Below, piece after piece: positions 1 to 31,628 of a stretch of 38,584 nt of DNA. Both the position numbers and the translations under genes were made by a program. The notes under the pieces are model-generated. The model saw only the letters and a program-made list of their open reading frames with translations, had not been told where the DNA came from and searched no databases. The DNA is from Bacteroidota bacterium (GTDB lineage: Bacteria > Bacteroidota > Bacteroidia > UBA4408), in the NCBI GenBank assembly GCA_963169745.1, contig CAUJCU010000003.1:1-38584 (forward strand), written 5' to 3'. Numbering within the stretch: position 1 is the stretch's first letter; each line of letters starts with the position of its first letter.

Positions 1-87
1 AATATCTTTTCAGTTAAAAGCACCATAGAGCGGTTTGAAAACTACTCCTATAAGTCGTATTCGGTGGGGCTACCACCATCTCATTGA
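1..87 (+). CDS. C-terminal end of an unidentified protein (partial)
   Basis: An open frame enters from the left edge in frame 1 and stops with TGA at 85-87, giving 28 residues that end in ..YSVGLPPSH. The aromatic, charged composition looks like real coding sequence, but it is too short to assign to a family. The start lies outside the window. It could be the tail of an enzyme or envelope protein; I do not recognise it. Confidence 0.45.
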   Translation, partial: NIFSVKSTIERFENYSYKSYSVGLPPSH

Positions 88-30070: not shown

Positions 30071-30097
30071 TTGGGTTAAATAATTTTCTTATTTTTG
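30071..30097 (+). promoter_or_regulatory. Promoter driving the cobalamin riboswitch
   Basis: TTG at 30071-30073 and TATTTTTG at 30090-30097 form a -33/-7 pair with a 16-nt spacer. A transcription start near 30103 would begin just ahead of the aptamer. Confidence 0.55.
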
Positions 30098-30103
30098 CAC
30101 CGC

Positions 30104-30300
30104 ATTGGTTTTTTACGATACATCTTTTGTGTCAAAAAATTAAAAGGAAATACTGTGTAAATCAGTAACAGTTCCCGCTGCTGTAAGCTTGAACTACTTT
30201 TTATAAAGTAGTTTTTTTCGGAATCTATAAGCCACTTTTTAGACATTTCTAAATGGGAAGGCTCCGATAAAAGCAAGTCAGAAGACCTGCCATTGCAAAA
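30104..30300 (+). promoter_or_regulatory. Cobalamin (B12) riboswitch
   Basis: The conserved core is readable. AAAAGGAAA is at 30142-30150, CCCGCTGCTGTAAGC at 30174-30188, AGCCAC...GGGAAGGC around 30230-30262, and the B12-box segment GCAAGTCAGAAGACCTGCC at 30273-30291. GCATTGG near 30112 can pair with CCATTGC near 30291 as P1. A peripheral A/T hairpin (30192-30213) with a T-run lies between the P4 and P6 regions. Just downstream CAACTT/AAGTTG (30311-30330) forms a small hairpin that may be part of the expression platform. It should lower expression of the DUF4465 gene when cobalamin is abundant. Confidence 0.95.
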
Positions 30301-30447
30301 ACAAATTGACCAACTTCGGGAAAAAAGTTGAGGATAATAGATCGTAAAATATTCTAAATTTTGCGCCTTATTTTACTCTATGCTTACCTGTTTTGGGGTC
30401 AAAATTATTTTTTAAAATTTAATAACAACCCAATAAAAACAAGCAAC

Positions 30448-31455
30448 ATGAAAAAAAAATTTACGTTTACTTTTACCTTAATTTTATGGGCCTTTACTTC
30501 GCTGCAGGCACAAACTCTTATTTCTGATTTTGACTCCTTACCTTTATCATCAGCACCCTATTGGAATGGAAACGATCATTCCGGTGGATTTGCCAGTGGA
30601 AGTGTTTATTTTAACAACTCCTATGATGATTCTTTTGGTGGTTATTGGGCTACAGGATTTGCTTATTCATCTGTTGTTGACTCTAGCACATCTGGATTTG
30701 GAAATATGTATGCCGCAAAGGCAGCATCGGGGTATAATAACTCATTAGTGTATGCTGTAGCACAACAGGGTGCTATTTGTAAAATTATTACCCCACAACC
30801 TGAGCTAACAACCGTTCAGGGTTTTTATGTAACCAATGGCACTTATGCTTATAATACCATGCGTGACGGGGATAGTTTCTCGCGTAAATTTGGAGACACA
30901 ACAGGTACCCATAGCGGACTGCCTCAAGGAGCCTTTCCTGACTTTTTTAAGCTTACTGTAAAGGGTTATTTTGGAGGCCAATTGCTTCCAGATTCCGTTG
31001 AGTTTTATTTAGCTGATTACCGATTTGCAATTGATAGTTTGGATTATATTGTTAAAACATGGGAATGGGTGGATTGTTCTTCGTTAGGCGCTGTAGATAG
31101 TTTGACATTCCTTCTTGCTTCTTCAGATATGGGTTCTTTTGGAATGAACACTCCGGCTTTCTTTTGTATCGACAACTTAACGCTTGACTATACCGTTGGA
31201 AATACCAATAAAAACTCATTTAGTACACTCGAGATTTTCCCAAATCCTGCTCAGAACTTCATTAGCATTAATGGTTCTATAACGGAACAACCGGTTCATG
31301 TAAAAGTATATAGTACTACTGGGCAAATGGTATTAGATTTTATTAATGTAACACCTCATCAACAATTAAACATAGAACAATTACCTTTGGGTATGTACTT
31401 GGTGCAGGTTCAAAATAACTCAGAACAAATTACCCTAAAAATATTGAAGCAGTAA
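30448..31455 (+). CDS. DUF4465 protein with T9SS C-terminal sorting domain
   Basis: A 335-residue secreted protein under the B12 riboswitch. The signal peptide (about 1-20) ends LQAQ. The DUF4465 domain (about 25-250) shows PYWNGNDHSGGF, ATGFAYSSVVDSSTSGFGN, FYVTNGTYAYNTMRDGDSF, FYLADYR and GMNTPAFFCIDNL. A type A T9SS sorting domain follows (about 260-335: LEIFPNPAQNFISI, then LPLGMYLVQVQNN and LKILKQ). It should be exported by the type IX system and attached to the cell surface. A corrinoid-related surface role is suggested by the riboswitch and by what I recall of DUF4465 genes near B12 uptake genes. The open frame starts at a TTG at 30361, but the signal peptide begins at 30448. It stands alone, ended by a strong terminator. 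Confidence 0.9.
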   Translation: MKKKFTFTFTLILWAFTSLQAQTLISDFDSLPLSSAPYWNGNDHSGGFASGSVYFNNSYDDSFGGYWATGFAYSSVVDSSTSGFGNMYAAKAASGYNNSLVYAVAQQGAICKIITPQPELTTVQGFYVTNGTYAYNTMRDGDSFSRKFGDTTGTHSGLPQGAFPDFFKLTVKGYFGGQLLPDSVEFYLADYRFAIDSLDYIVKTWEWVDCSSLGAVDSLTFLLASSDMGSFGMNTPAFFCIDNLTLDYTVGNTNKNSFSTLEIFPNPAQNFISINGSITEQPVHVKVYSTTGQMVLDFINVTPHQQLNIEQLPLGMYLVQVQNNSEQITLKILKQ

Positions 31456-31586: not shown

Positions 31587-31628
31587 AAAATAAGAAGGCT
31601 AAACCAGTAGCCTTCTTATTTTTTTTGT
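31587..31628 (+). terminator. Terminator after the DUF4465 gene
   Basis: A perfect 15-bp inverted repeat (31587-31601 and 31608-31622) with a 6-nt loop and a long T-tract. Confidence 0.92.

Follow-up and report, generated by a model that had tools for sequence, protein, structure and literature searches.

The closest described systems are the BtuJ proteins of B. thetaiotaomicron, BtuJ1 and BtuJ2 (BT_1491 and BT_1957; IPR027828), both of which are DUF4465 proteins that bind cobalamin and have structures solved with B12 (PMC12751083). Both bind cobalamin very tightly, the affinities given for the tested proteins as a group being nano- to picomolar (PMC12751083). Eight distant DUF4465 members all bind B12 as well (PMC13398666), and F2I9N3 of Fluviicola is a DUF4465 protein that binds B12. 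The link between DUF4465 and B12, which the initial annotation of the DNA studied here had put forward, is real and well documented in these two studies (PMC12751083, PMC13398666). Surface capture of B12 that feeds BtuB is also described for BtuH and BtuG, which are surface B12-binding lipoproteins (PMC8941943, PMC10404256). Targeting signals differ within the DUF4465 family: among 824 members, 229 carry IPR026444, 88 carry IPR013424 and 275 are lipoproteins (PMC12751083).

The gene analysed here lies in the window, i.e., the whole 38,584-nt contig (CAUJCU010000003.1 of assembly GCA_963169745.1), so that the surroundings of the gene could be viewed over 30 kb on its upstream side and 7 kb on its downstream side. 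Its product shares the domain of BtuJ1 and BtuJ2 (phmmer E 3e-20 to 1e-10), and its closest solved relatives are the B12-bound BtuJ1 (9fct, 3.4e-20), BtuJ2 and D5EK51 (9hmu, 8e-14). Like the BtuJ proteins, it is riboswitch-controlled and exported (predicted for the window protein), with the Tyr146 and Asn-Thr contacts kept; unlike them, since the BtuJs are lipoproteins encoded inside btuB operons, it has a T9SS tail and a standalone gene, as well as Phe in place of both Tyr245 and Tyr97 of BtuJ1. BtuH and BtuG resemble it in the role proposed below, but they have other domains and are lipoproteins, whereas the window protein is predicted T9SS cargo. The IPR026444 members, which we take to carry the T9SS C-terminal domain, combine DUF4465 with a C-terminal T9SS signal as the window protein does, and no difference from it is apparent at the level reported, their source not discussing them one by one. 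Judged by its sequence, the window gene is an ordinary family member, i.e., it is predicted to encode a BtuJ-type, T9SS-exported B12-capture protein within a split, riboswitch-controlled uptake regulon.

The DUF4465 gene and its predicted export route

The gene (30448-31455, plus strand, from the ATG at 30448 to the stop at 31455; ORF, Pfam and NCBIfam) encodes a protein of 335 aa. DUF4465 (PF14717) covers residues 63-244 (5e-45; 154.5 bits vs. a cut-off of 25), and a T9SS type A sorting tail at the very C-terminus is matched by Por_Secre_tail (PF18962; residues 263-332, 7e-13) and by TIGR04183 (residues 263-335 of 335; 1.3e-13; 50.8 vs. 23 bits). The N-terminus, MKKKFTFTFTLILWAFTSLQAQ (about residues 1-21), resembles a Sec signal peptide when judged by eye, and no lipobox was seen in the protein. 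A structure prediction from five sequences gave a mean pLDDT of 45.8 and was not used. The DUF4465 ORF is the only gene of its unit, which is closed by an intrinsic terminator (31587-31622, plus strand; 15 pairs, then a T tract; fold z-score -5.3). Its neighbours are LipB and a cold-shock protein (opposite strand) upstream and YjbR downstream, with no B12 gene beside it and no BtuB on the contig around it; both the lone gene ahead of a strong terminator and the absence of a nearby B12 receptor had been described correctly in the initial annotation. At the edge of the window (1-77, minus strand), there is also a match to group II intron D1-D4-2 (43.1 bits), interrupted by the contig end.

In a survey of 395 genomes from this class, of which 111 contain DUF4465, we took 114 regions around DUF4465 matches and located the cobalamin riboswitches in the same genomes. 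Counting upstream riboswitches and T9SS tails, as had been suggested at the outset, we found a cobalamin riboswitch upstream and on the same strand for 100/113 DUF4465 genes, the 13 genes without one including several near a contig edge and possibly others missed by the strict filters. The T9SS tail model was matched by 101 of the 111 DUF4465 proteins scanned (the 2104-aa protein of L045 was excluded from the domain scan). That is, as read from these tails, T9SS is the normal export route predicted for DUF4465 in the class surveyed, and, since 229 of the 824 published members carry IPR026444, T9SS-tailed DUF4465 proteins were already on record. The earlier view that T9SS delivery would be unusual, and export as an oddity of this locus, are rejected in view of these two counts, to which a search of the literature for T9SS in connection with BtuB and cobalamin added nothing. 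Outside the lipoprotein forms of gut Bacteroides, DUF4465 B12-capture proteins thus appear to be mostly T9SS cargo under cobalamin riboswitches, which the survey quantifies and of which the window gene is a further clear example. This T9SS frequency and the tyrosine count given below represent useful corrections for the B12-uptake field rather than a new system.

Two other architectures were observed in the survey. Two tandem DUF4465 domains, mostly with a T9SS tail, occur in L049, L050, L058, L066, L075, L097, L098, L101, L104, L111, L112, L113, L119 and L122, and the 2104-aa protein of L045 (1184-7495) contains a DUF4465 domain and has a cobalamin riboswitch 218 nt upstream.

Partner genes and a proposed split regulon

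The genome to which the window belongs (24 contigs, 99.96% complete) contains one DUF4465 gene and two cobalamin riboswitches. The second RF00174 match (contig C13, L004 7089-7278; 93.8 bits) precedes genes for a BtuB-like TonB receptor of 638 aa (TIGR01779 at 1.7e-21, well below cut-off, with clear barrel and plug domains) and a BtuG-like DUF5074 protein of 353 aa (L004 9561-10622; DUF5074 1e-23). The receptors that the initial annotation had supposed to be encoded elsewhere are, therefore, represented by BtuB and BtuG homologues behind a second riboswitch on another contig of the same genome, and an organism without a B12 receptor is ruled out by this locus. The accompanying proposal of an exported corrinoid binder holds in that the gene is riboswitch-controlled and its product predicted to be exported and probably corrinoid-binding; it is the supposed rarity of T9SS delivery that falls away. 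The same genome encodes MetH (above cut-off) and parts of IcmF-type and methylmalonyl-CoA mutases, which show that it uses B12, as well as the T9SS translocon SprA (TIGR04189, 2661.7 bits), and shows 130 TIGR04183 tail matches, the window DUF4465 protein included.

A FecCD (BtuC-type) inner-membrane permease was not found in this genome, in the genus members L081, L085 and L109, in the family members L120 and L138, or in L082/G164; FecCD is present in five other class-mates. Behind the BtuB-BtuG locus come genes for a small protein rich in His (126 aa) and for an RND efflux pump (L004 10641-16703), the pump ORF carrying a fused outer-membrane efflux domain (1450 aa), and the small His-rich protein and RND pump recur in two genus relatives (L155 and L156).

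Across relatives, two main layouts were observed: in one, the riboswitch is followed by BtuB and then by DUF4465 (about 2 kb away), often with a BtuG-like gene next, and in the other, the riboswitch directly precedes DUF4465, which is followed by BtuB and BtuG. BtuB is part of the same locus in 85 of the 100 loci having a riboswitch upstream of DUF4465. The lone layout, in which the riboswitch directly precedes DUF4465 and BtuB is absent within about 5 kb, accounts for 15/113 loci, the window's included, and is, hence, less common but recurrent. Compared to the riboswitch-BtuB-DUF4465-BtuG operons of other Bacteroidia (L042, L062, L087 and L138), the window's genome has the same three kinds of protein and cobalamin riboswitches, but divides these between two units, with one riboswitch apiece. 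A lone riboswitch-DUF4465 unit beside a cold-shock gene, with riboswitch-BtuB-BtuG elsewhere, was also seen in the other three species sampled from the genus; with the same split in all four sampled species, the split is stable in the genus. On the unrooted DUF4465 domain tree, the four genus proteins form one clade (starred; 99) whose nearest neighbour (88) is a BtuB-first protein, and the layout has switched 18 times or more; the split layout may be derived.

The riboswitch, the domains, the tail, SprA, the 130 tail matches, the BtuB and BtuG homologues and MetH are all observed in the sequence; B12 binding by the window protein, its transfer of cobamide to BtuG and BtuB, its attachment to the surface or release, and the direction in which the gene is regulated are inferred. 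Very probably, the window gene forms half of a split regulon for cobamide uptake that is repressed by B12. Under this hypothesis, low cellular cobamide would let the riboswitch allow the DUF4465 gene to be read, and the protein would exit via Sec and then T9SS, lose its tail, and be either surface-attached or released. Its jelly roll would then capture cobamide and pass it to the BtuG-like lipoprotein and the BtuB-like receptor made from the other locus under the second riboswitch. Two observations weigh against this hypothesis: no FecCD permease was found in the genome, and Tyr245 and Tyr97 of BtuJ1 are replaced by Phe in the window protein.

Alternatively, it is possible, if clearly less likely, that T9SS frees the protein to the medium as a cobalophore, with cobamide brought back in a haemophore-like manner or hoarded from competitors; this represents a variant of the split-regulon hypothesis that differs in the protein's final location. 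The strong T9SS tail with no lipobox seen is consistent with release, as is the finding that B. thetaiotaomicron vesicles bearing its BtuJ proteins already deliver B12 at a distance from the cell, and a separate unit with its own riboswitch would allow production in excess over BtuB. However, a T9SS tail is silent on whether cargo is anchored or released, and most class-mates have the gene in an operon together with BtuB, as would suit a partner that stays on the cell.

Residues of the putative B12 pocket

Among the B12-bonding residues of BtuJ1, Tyr146 (DE-helix), Asn241 and Thr242 are kept in the window protein as Tyr133, Asn234 and Thr235. The HI-loop Tyr245, which bonds the c side chain, corresponds to Phe238, so that the window HI-loop motif reads NTPAFF, with NTPxY kept except for the change of Tyr to Phe, and the AB-loop Tyr97 corresponds to Phe84. 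While published work describes the HI-loop tyrosine as "universal" or as conserved in 97% of homologues, our class survey found Tyr at this position in 69/128 DUF4465 domains and Phe in 56/128 (44%), which corrects the published rule. Since these 56 domains all match PF14717, the HI tyrosine does not define the DUF4465 family.

Phe238 and Phe84 may lower the affinity of the window protein or alter its specificity. A stronger version, in which Phe-type DUF4465 proteins, the window's included, have drifted from B12 capture to another corrinoid or to weak binding, draws on the frequency of Phe at the Tyr245 equivalent, on the at least 11 changes of this position on the domain tree, and on the occurrence of Thr there in loci L007 and L008, but we consider it improbable: Phe-type genes have the same cobalamin riboswitches and BtuB/BtuG neighbours as Tyr-type genes, the DE-loop Tyr and the Asn-Thr pair are kept in the window protein, and many other B12 contacts are main-chain. 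We take it that the Phe form would still bind. A combination of the two alternatives, i.e., a T9SS-released cobalophore made in excess, with a Phe-type pocket for a non-cobalamin corrinoid or for less tight cobalamin binding, seems similarly doubtful; if true, it would mean that the published DUF4465 tyrosine rule is valid for part of the family only.

The riboswitch and its probable regulatory hairpin

Under the split-regulon hypothesis, control of the gene would reside in the cobalamin riboswitch aptamer (RF00174) at 30089-30308 (plus strand), which cmscan matched over the full model (1-189) at 82.4 bits (gathering score 31.5; E 5.4e-19). This match covers the whole of 30104-30300, where a canonical B12 aptamer had been recognised by reading. 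Directly behind it, a P13 hairpin (30311-30330, plus strand; from folds) exposes the loop CGGGAA (L13, 30317-30322), which by inspection is the exact complement of the aptamer loop L5, UUCCCG (30172-30177, plus strand), and is predicted to be its kissing-loop partner and the probable expression platform. It is highly unlikely that the riboswitch has decayed and that expression is independent of B12: the score is lower than the 93.8 bits of the genome's second riboswitch, but the match is full-length, L5 and P13/L13 are intact, and four species of the genus retain both the riboswitch and its position.

The phylum Bacteroidota has a known promoter consensus, TTG / TAnnTTTG. By its likeness to this consensus, read by eye, 30071-30097 (plus strand; TTG at 30071-30073, TATTTTTG at 30090-30097) is a candidate promoter. 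Finally, of 34 riboswitches in related genomes that lie immediately before a DUF4465 gene, 27 are followed by a CGGG-loop hairpin, and the P13 stem reads CAACUU/AAGUUG in the window vs. AGCUU/AAGC in the genus relatives, i.e., a paired change.
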